Positions 1-26,410 of a stretch of DNA of 64,000 bases are shown one piece after another. The notes below the pieces were generated by a model. It ran no database searches. It was not told where the DNA came from and saw only the letters and a list, made by a program, of their open reading frames with translations. The DNA is taken from assembly GCF_014206875.1 (NCBI RefSeq), contig NZ_JACIJO010000001.1:744001-808000 (forward strand), written 5' to 3'. Numbering within the stretch: position 1 is the first letter of the stretch; each line of letters begins with the position of its first letter. The translations under genes were made by a program, and so were the position numbers. The stretch comes from Algoriphagus iocasae. GTDB lineage: Bacteria; Bacteroidota; Bacteroidia; Cytophagales; Cyclobacteriaceae.

Positions 1-4
1 TACG

Positions 5-796
5 ATGTGTCCGGACACAAATAGTCCGGAAGAAAAAGATATGTTTTTCTCCAGAAGAGAGGCCTTTCGCCAGTTTGGAGATCTCAGTAAGAAAGTAGCG
101 ATGGCTGCAGTGCCACTGGGTGTTTTGACAGCTTTGCCAAAAGTGGCTAAAGCAGATACAGAAAGCCTGATTGGCGTATTGAATTACGCGCTGACACTGG
201 AGCATTTAGAATATAGATATTATCAGACCGGTGTAGAGTCAGGAGTGATCGAAGGAGCAGACCTGAACATTTTCACCAAAATTCGTGATCACGAGTTGGC
301 TCACGTCAACTTCCTCACTGAGGTGATCGGAAATGTACTAGGCGGTATGCCAGTAGCAGAACCAGAGTTTGACTTTACAGCAGGAGGAAACTTCTCTCCA
401 TTTATGGATTACCCTACGTTCTTGGCACTTGCACAGGCATTTGAAGATACCGGTGTAAGAGCTTACAAAGGACAAGCAGGGAATGTGATGGAGTCTGATG
501 TAGTTTTGACAGCGGCACTTTCCATTCACTCTGTGGAAGCGAGACATGCGTCTATGGTCAGAAGATTAAGGACCAAAAAAGGTCAGGATACAGTGAAAGG
601 TTGGATCACCAATGGATCGATAGGATCCCTTCCAGCAGCCACTCAGGCGATTTATGCGGGAGAGGAAAATGTTAGCCATGGTGGAGTAGATGTGACTGCA
701 TTGACAGGCATCGATGCGGCTGCGGTTTCTGAAGCTTGGGATGAGCCATTGAGCAAAGACCAGGTTCTCGGAATTGCATCACTTTTCTTAGCATAA
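5..796 (+). CDS. Ferritin-like domain protein with Tat-like signal
   Basis: Ferritin-like four-helix protein of the exported, desiccation-associated type (PF13668-like), probably periplasmic. Residues 16-21 (SRREAF) followed by a hydrophobic run to about residue 48 ending KADT look like a twin-arginine signal peptide. Likely metal-binding or core residues lie in LEHLEYRYY (66-73), DHELAH (about 95-100) and SVEARH near 180. The frame is open to the left edge, so the true start may lie outside the window; an internal Met at position 41 sits just before the RR motif and is a good alternative. Related proteins in Bacteroidota often occur as tandem pairs, so a partner may lie upstream. The iron-storage or oxidoreductase role is not established for this subgroup. 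A clear terminator follows. Confidence 0.75.
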   Translation: MCPDTNSPEEKDMFFSRREAFRQFGDLSKKVAMAAVPLGVLTALPKVAKADTESLIGVLNYALTLEHLEYRYYQTGVESGVIEGADLNIFTKIRDHELAHVNFLTEVIGNVLGGMPVAEPEFDFTAGGNFSPFMDYPTFLALAQAFEDTGVRAYKGQAGNVMESDVVLTAALSIHSVEARHASMVRRLRTKKGQDTVKGWITNGSIGSLPAATQAIYAGEENVSHGGVDVTALTGIDAAAVSEAWDEPLSKDQVLGIASLFLA

Positions 797-818
797 TTAT
801 TAGTTGGGTTGGGTGGCG

Positions 819-854
819 AGATGTCATTTCCTTTGGAGATGGCATCTTTTTTTT
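819..854 (+). terminator. Rho-independent terminator of the ferritin-like gene
   Basis: GATGTCATTTCC pairs with GGAGATGGCATC (two G-T wobbles) across a three-base loop and is followed by eight T. It begins 23 bases after the stop codon. Confidence 0.75.
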
Positions 855-864
855 GTTTAAAGTT

Positions 865-1125
865 GAAATAGGCCTGTGGCGAAATAGAGTCGCTTCGCTC
901 CCAAGATAGGCTACGCGAAATATAGCTTCGCTGACATAGGGTCACTTCGTTCCTGAGATATGCTACGCGAGATATGCCTTCCTCCCTTCGGAAGGCAGCC
1001 GGCGAGATAGGGTCGCTATGCTCCTGAGATAAAGTCGCTTTGCTTCTGAGATAGGCTACGCGAAATACAGCCTCGCTGAGATAGGGTCACTCCGTTCCTT
1101 AGATATGCTGTGAGGGATATACTTT
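865..1125. repeat. GATA-spaced mini-hairpin array, block A
   Basis: About ten short units each start with GATA (905, 957, 971, 1006, 1028, 1050, 1080, 1102, 1117; CATA at 935). Each carries a 2-3 bp stem with a three-base loop (GC-TTC-GC, GC-TAT-GC, GC-TTT-GC, AC-TCC-GT, GC-TAC-GC) and most end in TGA or CGA. Several are exactly 22 bases apart. One unit holds an 8-bp stem (975-982 with 990-997). The complement of GCTTCGC is GCGAAGC, known as an unusually stable DNA mini-hairpin. The array fills the 390 bases between two convergent genes, and no reading frame in it looks coding. Confidence 0.8.
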
Positions 1126-1186
1126 CTGCGAAATAAAACGTAGACAGTATTTCACCGACCGAAGGGAGGTTTATTTCTATGGTGTT

Positions 1187-1723
1187 TCAAAGTATTATTT
1201 GATATAAACTACAAGGATTCAGATGCTTTGATTTTTTTAAATCTGGATGATCGAAGTCCAACCAATATTCCATTCCGATTTTTTGCATGACACGAATAGA
1301 TGCTTTGTTGTCTGAGGAAGCTAGGGATAAGACTTTCTGAATTCCTAGCTCTTTGGCAAAGTCCAGACATCGGCTGGCACCTTCTGTGGAATAGCCTCTG
1401 TTCCAAAATTCTTTCCGGATTCTCCAACCTATATCCACGCAAGGGGTGAACTCTGCTTCGAAAGTTTTCCATCCCATTCCGATCATTCCTAGGAGTTCGC
1501 CGGTTTCTAGAAGTTCGACTGCGAAATAACAATAGCCTTTATCTTTAAACATGCTATTCATTCGCTCCATCATCGCTTTTGACTCGTCTTTGGACAGAGG
1601 CTTTTCAAAGTATTTCATGGTTTCCGGGTCGGAATTCATGGCGCTGAACACATCGAGGTCAGAATCTTGCCAGGTTCGAAAGCCTAGGCGAGGGGAGGTG
1701 AAGAGATGCTGAGTTGTTTTCAA
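1187..1723 (-). CDS. GNAT family N-acetyltransferase (RimJ/RimL-like)
   Basis: About 178 residues with the order typical of RimJ/RimL acetyltransferases: the opening strand SPRLGFRTWQDSDLD (10-24), a central strand FAVELLETGELLGMIGMG, an acetyl-CoA loop region around IRKEFWNRGYSTEGA, and the C-terminal SDNKASIRVMQKIGMEY signature. The acceptor substrate cannot be told; relatives acetylate ribosomal proteins, amino acids or small amines. No ATG precedes the conserved N-terminal strand, so the TTG at 1723 is the likely start. It lies 59 bases downstream of the dinB stop on the same strand, so the two may be cotranscribed. The 3' side abuts hairpin array A. Confidence 0.8.
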   Translation of the reverse strand: MKTTQHLFTSPRLGFRTWQDSDLDVFSAMNSDPETMKYFEKPLSKDESKAMMERMNSMFKDKGYCYFAVELLETGELLGMIGMGWKTFEAEFTPCVDIGWRIRKEFWNRGYSTEGASRCLDFAKELGIQKVLSLASSDNKASIRVMQKIGMEYWLDFDHPDLKKSKHLNPCSLYQIIL

Positions 1724-1782
1724 GCTATGTGGATTTGGAGCAATATCGGATATGGAAAATAGAATTTCAAATACTCTTTATA

Positions 1783-2973
1783 TTAAACAGCCATCCCATT
1801 AAAAGGATTAAAGCTCCTTCTTCCTACGCTCATTCCTACGGCTCTGCAGACAGTTTTTTCTCCAAACTTTCCATTGATTTTATCCATGGCCTGGTAGAGG
1901 TTGATCTGCTCCTGGGTGTCTTCGAAGAGTTTGATCTGGTAGTTGCCATAAACCAGCGAACTGAAGCGCACGCCGATCAGACGGATGAGGATACGTCGGT
2001 TGTAAAGCTTTCGGAAGAGTTCTTTGACCAGAGGAATCAGCGTATGATCCGCCGAGGTGTAGGGGATACGCTGCTGCATGGTGTGGGTATCAAAATCCGA
2101 ATAGCGGATCTTTACACTCACGCAGGCCGTCAATTGCAGGTTTTGACGAAGTTTTCCTGTGAGTTGCTCGCACATGGCCACCAGTGTAGCTTCCAGCATT
2201 TTCACATCGATGGTATCCTGTTCAAAGGTGTTTTCGGTAGAGATAGATTTGGCTTCGGAGTAGGGAGTGACCGGAGAGCGATCGATTCCGTTGGCTTTTT
2301 CCCAGATCATATTCCCATTTTTTCCGAAAGTAGCCTGCAGGAGTTCGGCGGGCATTTGCTGCAGCGTCTGAACTTTTTTGACGCCCATGTTGTAAAGCGT
2401 CTGAGATGTTTTTTCTCCGATCATCGGGATTTTTCGCACGGAAAGAGGGGCTAGAAAAGGCTTTTCCTCTCCGAATAGAATCTGCTTTTCATTATTGGGT
2501 TTGGCTTCACCGGTAGCGACTTTGGAGACGGTTTTATTTTCTGAGAGTCCCAGAGAAATGGGCAGTCCGGTTTCTTTGATGATGCGCTGTCGGATCTGCT
2601 GCGAAAGCTTAAAGCAACCGAAAAAGCGATCCATTCCCGTCAGATCGATGTAGAACTCGTCAATCGATGATTTTTCAAATAGAGGAACTTCCTCCCGGAT
2701 GATCTCGGTAACCTCGTGGGATTTTTGACTATATTTTTCAAAATCTCCCCGGATAATCAATGCCTCGGGGCAAAGTTGTCTGGCTGTTCGCATGGGCATG
2801 GCTGAGTGCACTCCAAACTTCCTCGCCTCGTAACTGCAAGAAGCCACCACGCCACGATCTCCCGAACCTCCGATTAGGATAGGCTTTCCGTTGAGCCTGC
2901 TGTCAAATAACCGCTCTACCGACACAAAATAGGAGTCCAAATCCATGTGTACGATACTTCTCTTCGCTTCCAT
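1783..2973 (-). CDS. dinB: DNA polymerase IV (Y-family translesion polymerase)
   Basis: Error-prone Y-family polymerase that copies past lesions in the cytosol. The N-terminus carries the metal site in HMDLDSYFVSVE (Asp11) and the second motif SSIDEFYIDLTG (about 104-115). The steric-gate region is in the first motif, a helix-hairpin-helix (KIPMIGEKTSQTLYNMG) lies near residue 190, and the C-terminal little-finger domain follows. A length of 396 residues is slightly longer than E. coli DinB (351). The start is ATG. Two overlapping inverted repeats lie just upstream (2981-3006), suggesting repressor control. It shares the neighbourhood with an S24/HTH regulator and an alkyltransferase, consistent with a DNA-damage response group. 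Confidence 0.93.
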   Translation of the reverse strand: MEAKRSIVHMDLDSYFVSVERLFDSRLNGKPILIGGSGDRGVVASCSYEARKFGVHSAMPMRTARQLCPEALIIRGDFEKYSQKSHEVTEIIREEVPLFEKSSIDEFYIDLTGMDRFFGCFKLSQQIRQRIIKETGLPISLGLSENKTVSKVATGEAKPNNEKQILFGEEKPFLAPLSVRKIPMIGEKTSQTLYNMGVKKVQTLQQMPAELLQATFGKNGNMIWEKANGIDRSPVTPYSEAKSISTENTFEQDTIDVKMLEATLVAMCEQLTGKLRQNLQLTACVSVKIRYSDFDTHTMQQRIPYTSADHTLIPLVKELFRKLYNRRILIRLIGVRFSSLVYGNYQIKLFEDTQEQINLYQAMDKINGKFGEKTVCRAVGMSVGRRSFNPFNGMAV

Positions 2974-2980
2974 TTCTTTT

Positions 2981-3006
2981 GTTAATTATATTAACATTTT
3001 AATGTT
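2981..3006. promoter_or_regulatory. Overlapping inverted repeats upstream of dinB (operator candidate)
   Basis: GTTAAT-tat-ATTAAC (2981-2995) overlaps AACATT-tt-AATGTT (2993-3006), 8-33 bases upstream of the dinB start. The position and symmetry fit a dimeric repressor site. The nearby S24-family regulator (3885-4580) is an obvious candidate, but nothing in the sequence proves the pairing. Confidence 0.4.
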
Positions 3007-3078
3007 TATAATTTAAACAAAATTTTTATATTTGGGAATGGATAGTTAAGGATTGACGAGGGTTGACGTATGGAGAAA

Positions 3079-3136
3079 GATAAGCTTCGCGAGATATGCC
3101 TGCGGCGAGATAGAGGAAGATAGGCTTCGCAAGATA
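3079..3136. repeat. GATA-spaced mini-hairpin array, block B
   Basis: Five GATA units in 58 bases: GATA-a-GC-TTC-GC-ga, GATA-t-GCC-TGC-GGC-ga, a degenerate unit GATAGAGGAA, GATA-g-GC-TTC-GC-aa and a terminal GATA. These are the same unit types as block A. The array ends 32 bases before the start of the four-helix-bundle gene. Confidence 0.75.
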
Positions 3137-3167
3137 AATTGGGTTTTCTTATTAATGAGTATTAGCT

Positions 3168-3557
3168 ATGGAATCAAAGTCAAAATATATTCCTCTAAAG
3201 GAACTCGATATTTATCAGCTATCAAGAAAATTGTCTTCTAAAGCATGGAACATTTACCAACGTTTAGATTATCATCTTCGGAAAAACTGGGGAGATCAAA
3301 TGATAAGTTCCATTGATTCAGTGGGAGCAAATATTGCTGAGGGATATGCAAGGTTTCATTTCTTGGACAGGATAAAATTTTATTATATAGCTAGAGCATC
3401 ACTTTCGGAAAGTGTTGAACATTGGATTGATTTAGGTCTTGAGCGTAAGATAGTTTTGCAGGAAGAATTTGAAGAAATCTATTCTATCTCGAAGAATTTA
3501 CAGATCAAACTGAATAGGCAAATCAAAACAAGTTATGATGCAAAAAAGCAAGTTTAA
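3168..3557 (+). CDS. Four-helix bundle protein (S23 / 23S rRNA intervening-sequence family)
   Basis: A 129-residue, all-helical protein matching the S23/IVS family (TIGR02436, PF05635). It opens with PLKELDIYQLSRKLSSKAWNIYQ, followed by the highly typical SSIDSVGANIAEGYAR (46-61) and a C-terminal pair of helices with RASLSESVEHW. The fold makes a barrel-like pentamer in known members and resembles Avd of diversity-generating retroelements; nucleic-acid binding is suspected but its job is unknown. Classic members lie in spacers inserted in 23S rRNA genes. This one is chromosomal, has no rRNA around it, and is flanked on both sides by GATA mini-hairpin arrays (blocks B and C). The start is ATG without a clear ribosome binding site. 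Confidence 0.9.
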   Translation: MESKSKYIPLKELDIYQLSRKLSSKAWNIYQRLDYHLRKNWGDQMISSIDSVGANIAEGYARFHFLDRIKFYYIARASLSESVEHWIDLGLERKIVLQEEFEEIYSISKNLQIKLNRQIKTSYDAKKQV

Positions 3558-3565
3558 TTAAAAGT

Positions 3566-3868
3566 TATCTGCCTTTAAGCTATCTTACTTATCTGCCACA
3601 GGGCTATCTTTTATTGATAAGATATGCTTCGCGAAGATAGGTCGCTTCGCTCCTGAGATAAGCCTTCGGTGGGATAGGCTTCGTAAGCTATAATCAACTT
3701 AGCTTCCTAAGATAGCTTTCGGTCAGTCCGAGCGGAGTCGAGGACTAGGCTTCGATTTCGAGACTCTCGTCTCTCAAGTGCTCAGCCTGAAATCTGGCTT
3801 AAGTTCTATCTTGAATTATCTGCCTTTAGGCTATCTTATTTCTATCTGCTCGAAGAGCTATCTTTTTT
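3566..3868. repeat. GATA-spaced mini-hairpin array, block C
   Basis: This array fills the 327-base gap between the four-helix-bundle gene and the S24 gene. Four units run in the reverse orientation (TATC...ATCTG on this strand). Their stems read, on the complement, GCT/GGC, GCC/GGC (twice) and GCTC/GAGC with three- or four-base loops (near 3566-3585, 3588-3610, 3816-3837, 3842-3864). Between them are forward units like those of block A, including 3636-3656, a near copy of the 22-base unit. The core also contains AGTCC...GGACT (3725-3745) enclosing GAGCGGAGTCGA, and GAGAC-TCTC-GTCTC (3760-3773). I see no coding sequence. Confidence 0.75.
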
Positions 3869-3884
3869 AATAAAAAGACAAAAA

Positions 3885-4580
3885 ATGACTCTAAACACCA
3901 ATATTAAATTCCTCCGGAAAAAGAAAAATCTCACCCAAGAGGTACTGGCTTCTACATTGGGCATATCGAGGTCTAAGCTGGCTGGATATGAATCCAGTGT
4001 CAACCCACCGCTAGACACCTTAGTGAAATTGTCGGATGCGCTGGGTGTGTCTTTGGATATTCTGCTTCGAGAGGATCTGACATCTTATTCGGAATATAAA
4101 CTGCGTGAACTCCTGGAAACAGATCAATTTCTGCGAGGGAGAAAGTTGCGGATTTTGGCCACGACAGTGGATGAACAGGGGAGAGAGTTGATAGAAGTGG
4201 TTTCGCAACGCGCCAAAGCGAGTTATCTGGCGGGCTTTGCTGATCCAGAATATATTTCTGAGTTGCCAAGGTTTGCTTTACCATTCTTACCAACAGATAA
4301 AAAACACCGGGTATTTCAGGTGGATGGAGATTCCATGTTGCCGATACCGGACGGAGCATGGATTGTCTGTGAGTATGTGGATGATTGGTTGGCAGTGAAG
4401 GATGGAGAGCGATATGTCATCGTCACCGAGCAGGATGGAGTAACTTTCAAATTGGCCTACAACCGCATTCAATCAGAGCAGAAGTTGTTGCTTTGCTCGG
4501 CTAATCCGATTTATCCTCCATTCGAAGTGGAAATCGAGCAAGTCCGGGAAATCTGGAAATATCGCTTGGCGATGAGTTGA
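3885..4580 (+). CDS. XRE-type HTH regulator with S24 (LexA/CI-like) peptidase domain
   Basis: A 231-residue regulator. Residues 5-60 form an XRE helix-turn-helix (NLTQEVLASTLGISRSKLAGYE). Residues 130-225 form an S24 domain with nucleophile Ser150 in GDSM and likely general base Lys189 in VTFKLAYN. A LexA-like Ala116-Gly117 pair (YLAGF) lies in the linker at the expected place for self-cleavage. This is the architecture of repressors that are inactivated on DNA damage. It is encoded between hairpin block C and the alkyltransferase gene, with dinB 0.9 kb away on the other strand, so control of the local repair genes is plausible but inferred. The start is ATG with no clear ribosome binding site. 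Confidence 0.87.
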   Translation: MTLNTNIKFLRKKKNLTQEVLASTLGISRSKLAGYESSVNPPLDTLVKLSDALGVSLDILLREDLTSYSEYKLRELLETDQFLRGRKLRILATTVDEQGRELIEVVSQRAKASYLAGFADPEYISELPRFALPFLPTDKKHRVFQVDGDSMLPIPDGAWIVCEYVDDWLAVKDGERYVIVTEQDGVTFKLAYNRIQSEQKLLLCSANPIYPPFEVEIEQVREIWKYRLAMS

Positions 4581-4605
4581 TAGGTTTGAAAAACAATGGA
4601 AATAA

Positions 4606-4640
4606 GTCTCACTTCGTTCGACGAAATACAATAGAAATAG
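4606..4640. repeat. Possible remnant of the mini-hairpin repeat
   Basis: The segment between the S24 and alkyltransferase genes contains GTCTCACTTCGTTCGACGAA, close to the GGGTCACTTCGTTCC core of block A units, followed by AT-rich sequence with ATAG/GATA. It lacks a full unit. Confidence 0.35.
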
Positions 4641-4667
4641 ATAACCTTACTTAAAATCTTTTAATCC

Positions 4668-5132
4668 ATGCCGATAATAGCGACCTCCTTAGGAAATGTT
4701 CTTTTGGAGATTCAAGATGAAAAACTCACTCGACTTCAATTTACCCAAGATCCTTTGAGTGAAGAATCTATACAAGGAATTGCCAAAGAGGTGAAAAATC
4801 AATTGGATGACTATTTTTCTGGTAAAAGGAATTCCTTTGATCTGCCACTGGAATTAAAAGGAACTGACTTTCAAAAAAGTGTGTGGGAAGCTGTGAACCA
4901 GATTCCTTTTGGACAGACGACCACCTACATGAAGCTATCGCAAAAGCTTGGAAATGTAGCTGCAATCCGAGCTGTCGGTGCTGCCATTGGTGCAAATCCG
5001 ATTTTAGTGATTGTGCCTTGCCATCGAATTATCGGTACCAATGGGCAGTTGACCGGCTATGCAGGAGGCTTGGAAAGAAAACAAGCTTTACTGGAGTTAG
5101 AAGGTTTTCCTGTCCAGAAAAGCTTGTTTTGA
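4668..5132 (+). CDS. ogt: Methylated-DNA-[protein]-cysteine S-methyltransferase
   Basis: Suicide repair protein that moves O6-alkyl groups from guanine to its own cysteine. The acceptor Cys118 is in the invariant VPCHRI motif (116-121). A winged-helix DNA-binding segment (FQKSVWEAVNQIPFGQTTTYMKLSQKLG, 68-95) and the asparagine-hinge region lie upstream, and GQLTGYAGGLERKQALLELEG follows. The length (154) fits Ogt-type single-domain enzymes without the AraC-like Ada domain. It converges with the RidA gene, with only two bases between stop codons. The neighbouring S24 regulator and dinB suggest a DNA-damage group. Confidence 0.93.
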   Translation: MPIIATSLGNVLLEIQDEKLTRLQFTQDPLSEESIQGIAKEVKNQLDDYFSGKRNSFDLPLELKGTDFQKSVWEAVNQIPFGQTTTYMKLSQKLGNVAAIRAVGAAIGANPILVIVPCHRIIGTNGQLTGYAGGLERKQALLELEGFPVQKSLF

Positions 5133-26309: not shown

Positions 26310-26410
26310 AACCACCTTTTAATCTTTCAACCTTTCAACTTTACAACCTTCAACTCAAAATCTTCCAATATTATAACCTTCCAATTGACTTTGCTTCGAC
26401 TCCTCTCAGG
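26310..26410. repeat. Pyrimidine-rich degenerate repeats upstream of guaA
   Basis: Short degenerate repeats of the form (A)ACCTTTCAACTTT/ACAACCTTCAACT run from about 26317 to 26388. They end in TTGCTTCGACTCCTCTCAGG (26391-26410), which contains CTTCGACTC, the complement of the GAGTCGAGG stretch in hairpin block C (GAGCGGAGTCGAGG, 3732-3745; CTTCGACTC against CCTCGACTC differs at one base). It may be a decayed intergenic repeat. Confidence 0.45.

Follow-up and report, generated by a model that had tools for sequence, protein, structure and literature searches.

The S23-type gene at 3168-3557 and the repeat blocks on both sides of it (B and C) appear to form a single insertion, designated here as an S23 element, and a further block (A) and distant GATA clusters appear to be gene-less members of the same repeat family. 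We assign this reading a probability of approximately 0.6. The window, i.e., the whole analyzed stretch of 64,000 nt from the Algoriphagus iocasae contig NZ_JACIJO010000001.1, was compared with PF05635 loci from other genomes, plasmids, and viral contigs. On our best reading, S23 elements are mobile, resemble the intervening sequences (IVSs) of rRNA, span approximately 0.5 kb, lie mostly in sense between genes, and have arms that also spread without the gene.

The S23 locus in the window

The features of the locus are as follows.

873..1140, + strand: block A, a GATA-spaced array without a gene, 3' of a ferritin-like gene
1783..2973, - strand: dinB-type Y-family polymerase gene (profile match), the host gene on one flank of the insertion site
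3079..3136, + strand: block B, the upstream arm of the S23 element, with forward GATA units
3168..3557, + strand: S23/23S_rRNA_IVP four-helix-bundle gene, PF05635 and TIGR02436, 129 aa (profile matches and predicted fold)
3566..3609, - strand: inner part of block C, the downstream arm, with TATC (inverted) units
3616..3715, + strand: middle of block C, with forward GATA units
3807..3863, - strand: outer part of block C, with TATC (inverted) units, adjoining the next gene
3885..4580, + strand: HTH_3 and Peptidase_S24 gene (profile match), the host gene on the other flank of the insertion site

The three blocks and the S23-type gene were present at the positions given in the preliminary description, and the gene product matched PF05635 at 73.2 bits (cut-off 33.8) and TIGR02436 at 65.7 bits (cut-off 24). 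Its predicted fold consists of four helices (pLDDT 94.1). The best solved match in Foldseek was 2gsc (TMt 0.91-0.94), and 2rld was also matched (TMt 0.78-0.86); both of these solved members have 5 chains. The Xanthomonas S23 protein is described as a ring in PMC4990558, a passage of which calls the function of PF05635 proteins not known. PF05635 was the only family listed for the window protein, with no transposase domain and no Y1 transposase. The protein also resembled Avd (4dwl chains, Foldseek E 0.03-0.08, TMt 0.84-0.89), a likeness of PF05635 that is remarked upon in PMC10053308, and the Avd model was absent from the families listed for it. The own genome yielded 0 matches to the reverse transcriptase family PF00078, which rules out reverse transcriptase dependence there.

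The blocks were linked by repeats. Block A contains two copies of ~101 nt that are 83% alike, the repeat family D1 (28 nt, 6 copies) is common to blocks A and C, and families D3/D5 (18-20 nt, 6 copies each) are common to all three. The single design previously proposed for the blocks does not hold for block C, which mixes forward and inverted units. GATA plus TATC occurred 9 times in block A, 5 times in block B, and 15 times in block C, against 2.5, 0.6, and 2.8 expected from the window density. Since shuffles of the first 6 kb of the window reached a maximum of 10 per any 270 nt, the count alone places only block C beyond chance; blocks A and B are established as real repeats by the repeat alignments, not by the GATA count. 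The unit pattern had 8 matches in the window, 6 of which were within the blocks (2.6 expected overall).

Block C is composite. Its TATC ends (3566-3609 and 3807-3863) enclose the forward GATA units at 3616-3715, which are probably a second array nested inside the arm, and it also holds a stretch resembling other interspersed repeats. The inverted match between the flanks of the gene was 19.0 (z 4.3, equalled by 1 of 200 shuffles). The direct match was as good (19.0, z 4.7) because block C also contains forward units.

The blocks had been described as mini-hairpins. In fold stability, blocks A and B did not exceed shuffled sequences (z +1.23 and +1.69, respectively), ruling out exceptional hairpin stability for them, while block C was mildly more stable (z -2.01). 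Spacing was also variable: [GA]ATA recurred every 14-38 nt in block A, and GATA every 10-16 nt in block B and 5-38 nt in block C. No 7-nt array was called in the window, including the arms of its own S23 gene. A known RNA family was not matched in Rfam up to E 1 (window 1-5000), and a CRISPR identity was rejected for the blocks, the units being degenerate and spacer-like regularity absent. Elsewhere in the window, 26311-26356 is a solo array without an S23 gene.

PF05635 genes between mirrored arrays

Most of the PF05635 genes examined, from approximately a dozen phyla, cyanobacterial plasmids, and viral contigs, sit between mirrored arrays, the sequence of which is locus-specific and varies from site to site. 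Thus, the repeat-plus-protein element suggested in the preliminary description holds in outline, with a gene and flanking arrays in a layout that recurs in most PF05635 loci examined. Within the own genome, the inverted arm match averaged 19.3 within a locus and 12.8 across loci, and an arm's own partner was its best match in 9 of 13 rows. An inverted match of at least 16 was found at 95 of 123 loci in the order-level set (123 kept of 136 gene matches after E limit, flank length, and duplicate filtering) versus 13 of 256 control ORFs. The phylum-level set gave 51 of 77 loci versus 43 of 473 controls; three of its 80 loci were left out (L163 and L181 for want of an upstream flank, one more as too short), and L225 was retained with an upstream flank that is mostly N. 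The layout was also seen at 9 of the 10 cyanobacterial plasmid loci fetched (of 26 records).

S23 was absent from the annotated phage records searched and present in IMG/VR viral contigs. The threshold was passed by 25 of 28 viral genes (from 36 viral loci, two of the genes from L403) and by 12 of 15 further paralogs (those new relative to the phylum set among the 30 loci L367-L396), with cross pairs passing in 4-6%. Since the further paralogs include L389 from Fodinibius, the "non-Bacteroidota" label of that set is loose; they also include L368, which repeats the L237 locus.

Pooling gave 191 of 254 loci (many of them orthologs, with a few duplicates, L237/L368 and L405/L408) versus 26 of 357 controls, the latter being genes at least 700 nt from any S23 gene. 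Thinning to <60% protein identity left 100 of 135 loci above the threshold. The 191 passing loci had a median arm of 40 nt and a median element of 497 nt. S23 genes were mostly oriented like their neighbors (in sense at 168 of the 195 sites with codirectional neighbors). A direct match of at least 16 occurred at 43 of the 254 loci, some of which also had an inverted match. All three array tests were failed by 31 of 254 loci, and at least one was passed by 75 of 357 controls. S23 shares this layout with a second family, GxxExxY, which is also flanked by inverted arrays, of other units (28 of 32 loci used). A high lag-7 value at the GxxExxY locus L328 is an artefact of an N run.

Across PF05635 loci, the dominant arm unit is usually 7 nt. 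The lag-7 periodicity of the arms had z scores of 48 and 41 in two sets, which also showed harmonics at 14 and 21; z was 29.9 in viral contigs and 19.3 in the further paralogs. Arrays of 7 nt were called at 64 of 123 and 41 of 80 loci; the expectation, 1.1 per 123, was taken from 400 kb of one genome, in which 8 arrays were called. S23 protein identity and array similarity within genomes did not correlate (347 pairs, rho -0.08), which rules out array choice tracking protein identity and leaves arm binding by sequence unsupported. By eye, a few close S23 paralog pairs have a common array theme.

In the gammaproteobacterium G421, the sole PF05635 gene is flanked by arms of GGGAATC on one side and GATTCCC on the other (score 28). 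The GGGAATC heptamer also occurs elsewhere in that genome with no detectable S23 gene, and no S23 remnants were found within 300 nt of three such places (best full-sequence E 0.92). GGGAATC / GGGGA(T/C)T is a published heptamer repeat, with 70 and 75 convergent heptamer pairs in two xanthomonads (PMC4692102).

Site states and explanations of the arms

Three sites (odhB|lpd, fadJ|fadI, and dinB|S24) were compared across related genomes and occurred in filled, broken-gene, gene-less-arm, and empty states. Unparsed loci were left out at odhB|lpd (7 of 30) and dinB|S24 (5 of 17); at fadJ|fadI, one locus had no start match and G006 (L317) was not counted. Such presence and absence at fixed sites would be expected if the insertion is mobile or decaying, in line with the mobile-element idea raised at the outset. 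Transposition was not observed in the present analysis, and a transposing enzyme was not found.

We propose that insertion takes place between the genes of an operon and that the element would be expressed as part of the host transcript. The S23 protein, the relatives of which are ring-shaped pentamers, may bind the arms through their regular spacing, not a fixed sequence. With the arms as the cis part, host enzymes of replication or recombination may copy the element, as well as gene-less arrays in trans, in a manner akin to the dependence of REP sequences on the RAYT protein. Loss of the gene from between the arms would leave gene-less arm pairs. More broadly, we tentatively envision a mobile element with ends set by rhythm rather than sequence: the S23 ring would read the 7-nt spacing, so that the two arms of every copy have a sequence peculiar to that copy; gene-less arms would spread in trans; cyanobacterial, xanthomonad, Beggiatoaceae, and Geobacter heptamers would have this common source; the rRNA IVS would be a special case that landed in rRNA; and GxxExxY would be a parallel second kind with another unit length.

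A possible, albeit rather unlikely, alternative is RNA excision. On this view, the two arms would base-pair within the operon transcript and form a stem for RNase III, whose cleavage would free the S23 segment from the mRNA, as happens to an IVS in 23S rRNA; the arms would be retained because such pairing makes the insertion less harmful to the host operon. The orientation of S23, in sense at 168 of the 195 sites whose two neighbors run codirectionally, is consistent with this, as are the inverted arms at 191 of 254 loci and the 23S IVS of one species, described in PMC4990558 with an RNase III-cut inverted-repeat stem and three GACAGAT heptamers before the S23 start. However, arm mismatches showed no excess of G-U wobble (0.440 vs 0.458 in the cross-locus null, p 0.39), so that wobble gives no support to RNA pairing of the arms, and arms are direct at some loci. 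Moreover, the arm match at odhB|lpd within the genus was 21.9 within species and 21.6 between species; therefore, no arm-to-arm homogenising or co-evolution within the genus was seen at that site.

It is improbable that the arrays came first, with slippage building 7-nt arrays in operon gaps where S23 genes land or are kept. Gene-less solo arrays at fadJ|fadI in G014 and G004 and at 26311-26356 in the window fit such an order, and slippage was earlier proposed as the origin of heptamers, as told in PMC4679880. However, 7-nt arrays are rare by chance (8 in the 400 kb cited above), and slippage by itself gives no reason to expect arrays on the two sides that match in inverted orientation. Still less probable are regulatory sites for a host protein, with S23 as one of several controlled genes. 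Such a role was proposed in print for the heptameric TAACTGA repeats (PMC4679880) and for the paired heptamer/octamer repeats of Geobacter (PMC2700814), but the arm sequence varies between S23 sites of one genome, a variation incompatible with one regulator that recognizes its sites by sequence.

The preliminary description had proposed testing whether the density of GATA mini-hairpin units peaks near PF05635 genes. The GATA mini-hairpin does not mark the family. Only the window's gene among the 13 PF05635 genes of the own genome has GATA arrays, and GATA clusters at C3:1199443-1200064 and C2:1194524 are separated from even the closest of these genes by >160 kb, which is half of what that description held would count against it; stand-alone clusters were checked for S23 remains by an ORF search. 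At the dinB|S24 site, the nearest filled relative (G001) has upstream GATA-type units in the reversed orientation, and the other filled relatives (G007, G002, and G005) have GAAATA-type units and the CCCCGCAAGCGGGG hairpin instead. Consequently, a specific pairing of the S23 protein with GATA mini-hairpins as such, which blocks B and C around the window gene and the units of G001 would favor, is very improbable and already mostly refuted by the remaining observations.

Comparison with known systems

The 23S rRNA IVS with an S23p ORF, as described in PMC4990558, is similar to the S23 element in its protein family, an ORF in sense, and complementary ends, which are clear in most relatives, although at the window locus the direct match equals the inverted one; its length is 428 nt versus the median of 497 nt here, and it has heptamers before the ORF. 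In contrast to the IVS, S23 elements are found in the gaps separating protein genes, occur several times per genome, and have site-specific arrays, and their removal from RNA is putative. The window element is located between dinB and the Peptidase_S24 gene, not inside an rRNA gene. Avd of diversity-generating retroelements shares the S23 fold; however, the own genome lacks a reverse transcriptase match.

In REP/RAYT systems, the gene lies between inverted repeats, and gene-less repeat pairs occur elsewhere in the genome. The S23 element similarly has gene-less copies elsewhere and inverted flanks, with an equal direct match at the window locus. It differs in that S23 lacks a transposase domain and its arms, instead of being a single palindrome, are degenerate arrays that share a period.

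Published heptamer repeats also include cyanobacterial heptanucleotides, known as STRR. These were the subject of a Calothrix report cited in PMC4692102. Similar to S23 arms, the published repeats are 7-nt tandem units located between genes. They differ from the window's own arms, which lack the 7-nt period that the family at large has. The published GGGAATC repeat had no known partner gene, whereas GGGAATC arms surround a PF05635 gene here; "S23" and "four helix" are absent from the main texts of PMC4692102 and PMC4679880, which describe heptamers as repeats alone. PF05635 occurs in many phyla, and heptamer repeats have been reported repeatedly without an accepted explanation (PMC4679880, PMC4692102, PMC2700814). 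The present results suggest that several puzzling repeat families are traceable to one widespread mobile element. If PF05635 and the heptamers are one element, the ligand of the S23 ring and the reason for the 7-nt unit become testable, as do arm cutting from mRNA and transposase-less spread via gene gaps, plasmids, and viral contigs.

Locus-specific arrays around S23 genes

The window carries a four-helix-bundle gene of PF05635 (23S_rRNA_IVP; S23), matched at 73.2 bits, and three arrays with repeat families in common:

Block A, 873-1140, families shared with B and C
Block B, 3079-3136, families shared with A and C
S23 gene, 3168-3557, forward strand
Block C, 3566-3863, families shared with A and B

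GATA and TATC together occur 9, 5 and 15 times in blocks A, B and C, against 2.5, 0.6 and 2.8 expected from the window density; the maximum per 270 nt in shuffles of the first 6 kb was 10. Block C is composite, with TATC units inverted at either end and forward GATA units in the middle. The preliminary description regarded the units as mini-hairpins. As RNA, block C folded somewhat more stably than shuffles (z -2.01), whereas blocks A and B did not (z +1.23 and +1.69). We scored the match of the upstream flank to the downstream flank, inverted or direct (threshold at least 16), and this locus reached 19.0 inverted (z 4.3) and 19.0 direct (z 4.7). A short array of units of approximately 8 nt (ACCTTTCA type), with no gene, lies at 26311-26356, 5' of a start that we take to be that of guaA.

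Nearly each of the 13 PF05635 genes in this genome was flanked by its own short-unit arrays, the sequence of which varied by locus when inspected by eye (for example, AAGTACAAAGTACCAAGT and ACTTGGTACTTTGTACTT on the two sides of the gene at L001). We compared the 350 nt 5' of each gene with the reverse-complemented 350 nt 3' of it; own pairs scored 19.3 on average and cross pairs 12.8, and the own partner was the top match in 9/13 rows. The inverted match was weak at L002 and L004 (z 1.5 and 2.5), and the arms of L009 and L011 were chiefly direct. L011 (C3:650465) has mini-hairpin-like units (GCTTCGC, GCTACGC) with a mostly TTGT-like spacer in place of GATA.

The two-sided array around the S23 gene is real, and a repeat-plus-protein element had rightly been suspected. 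However, GATA is a local variant, present at the window locus only among the 13. GATA clusters at C3:1199443-1200064 and C2:1194524 are distant from all 13 genes. The finding is the general pattern of an S23 gene between locus-specific arrays, not the GATA variant.

The predicted model of the window S23 protein (pLDDT 94.1) matched 2gsc and 2rld, of five chains each (TMt 0.78-0.94), and Avd chains at E-values of 0.03 and worse. PF00078 reverse transcriptase had no match in this genome.

Generality and unit length

In an order-level set, 95/123 S23 loci scored at least 16 vs 13/256 control ORFs taken from those loci (p 7e-43); in a scan of named genomes covering about a dozen phyla by record titles, 51/77 loci did so vs 43/473 controls (p 4e-30). 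An archaeal MAG locus scored 29.5, with a binning error possible. A tblastn search of plasmids yielded 26 records with S23, 24 of them cyanobacterial; 9 of the 10 loci fetched reached the threshold, as did 25 of the 28 usable genes from 36 IMG/VR loci and 12/15 further paralogs, mostly outside Bacteroidota. S23 was not found in annotated phages. The pooled values were 191/254 vs 26/357 control ORFs lying 700 nt or more from an S23 gene, and 223 S23 loci vs 75 controls passed any of three array tests. Many of the 254 loci are orthologous and a few duplicated; thinning to below 80% and 60% protein identity left 157/211 and 100/135.

In CRISPR operons on plasmids of Anabaena sp. 90 and Pseudanabaena galeata, an S23 gene with heptamer arrays separates cas6 from cas4. 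This arrangement may explain why a survey of CRISPR associations (PMC10910872) names 23S rRNA IVP in one figure legend.

Lag 7 was in excess in S23 flanks (245 flanks, z 48; 156 flanks, z 41), and harmonics appeared at 14 and 21. Arrays of 7 nt were called at 64/123 and 41/80 loci; the background of 8 in 400 kb of one genome predicts 1.1/123. Other periods from 5 to 10 were found at 0-2 loci per set, except for 8 (12 and 7 loci). Upstream arrays were purine-rich in 83/105 and downstream arrays pyrimidine-rich in 101/126. Approximately a dozen consecutive AAGTATC units precede S23 between fadJ and fadI in G002 (L313), whereas most relatives have few, degenerate units, which suggests that arrays are capable of fast expansion.

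GxxExxY/PDDEXK_3 genes (PF13366; L327-L331 and L446-L473, from this genome and relatives) were chosen as a control. They also had inverted degenerate arrays of other units on either side (for example, ACCGCAGAGGCGCAG / CTCTGCGGTGA or CACATAG units), and 13/28 loci scored at least 16 vs 11% of cross pairs. Their flanks had no 7-nt period (lag-7 z -3.6) and a weak excess at lags 8 and 9. Therefore, S23 shares the two-sided layout with at least one other family, and the 7-nt rhythm is typical of S23.

States of the same sites in relatives

Between odhB and lpd, the S23 gene was present in 12 genomes of the genus, with internal stops in three (G008, G009, and G010), and absent in nine. Among the latter, inverted arms of another theme (by eye) still match in G016, G018, and G019, G003 retains fragments resembling S23 remains, and arrays are mismatched or absent in the others (gap of 35 nt in G022). 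Leaving out G006, the site between fadJ and fadI was filled in 13 genomes and unfilled in seven: solo arrays with a theme like the odhB-lpd arms (G014, G004), arrays of two themes without the gene (G005, G011), or gaps of 25-43 nt (G018, G022, G015). Across Bacteroidota, the theme at fadI varies with lineage; arm matches at 15 loci averaged 15.5 for own vs 10.8 for cross pairs, with the own partner best in only 5/15 rows. The window's site was filled in 5/12 genomes read; G008 has a truncated gene, G018, G006, and G020 have arms without it, a short remnant is left in G003, and there is none in G010 or G004. Among the four filled relatives, GAAATA-type units occur together with a CCCCGCAAGCGGGG hairpin in G007, G002, and G005, and the nearest, G001, has upstream GATA-type units in reversed orientation. 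G018, listed as 100% complete, has zero PF05635 matches, yet of the three sites compared, odhB-lpd and the window's site still have arrays in this genome.

With the longest nearby ORFs taken crudely as neighbours, S23 was in sense at 168/195 sites with codirectional neighbours (all neighbour pairs: ++ 168, -- 27, +- 33, -+ 12). Within genomes, S23 protein identity did not predict array similarity (347 pairs, rho -0.08).

The simplest reading that fits these sites is that an S23 element inserts between genes, its gene would be expressed in sense from the host's transcript, the gene may be lost from between the arms, and gene-less arms may spread. The S23 segment might be excised from RNA, as in rRNA intervening sequences (IVS), but two tests were negative: wobble-compatible arm mismatches were not in excess (309/703 transitions vs 1173/2559 in cross pairs, p 0.39), and own arms in the 12 odhB-lpd genomes matched no better than other species' arms (21.9 vs 21.6). 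For the inserting element, we infer that an S23 ring binds the spaced arms and that host enzymes copy the arms or the element.

Comparison with published repeats

GGGAATC repeats are described in Xanthomonas, where two genomes have 70 and 75 convergent pairs, and related repeats in Nostoc (PMC4692102). Among 369 gammaproteobacterial genomes, three consecutive perfect GGGAATC units occurred in one (G421), the sole PF05635 gene of which is flanked by arms of GGGAATC and GATTCCC (score 28). This gene has an apparent frameshift, and its neighbours are apparently accB and accC, judging from flanking peptides. GGGAATC occurs at four more places in G421, at least two of which are close inverted pairs (L436, L439); no S23 remnant was found beside the three tested. 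TAACTGA repeats (PMC4679880) and paired heptamer and octamer repeats in one Geobacter (PMC2700814) have also been reported. Searches of openly licensed PubMed Central papers found no statement of a family-wide S23-heptamer link. PMC4990558 describes an rRNA IVS with a stem cut by RNase III and three heptamers ahead of the S23 ORF, and this is the sole printed case we met of heptamers with an S23 gene.
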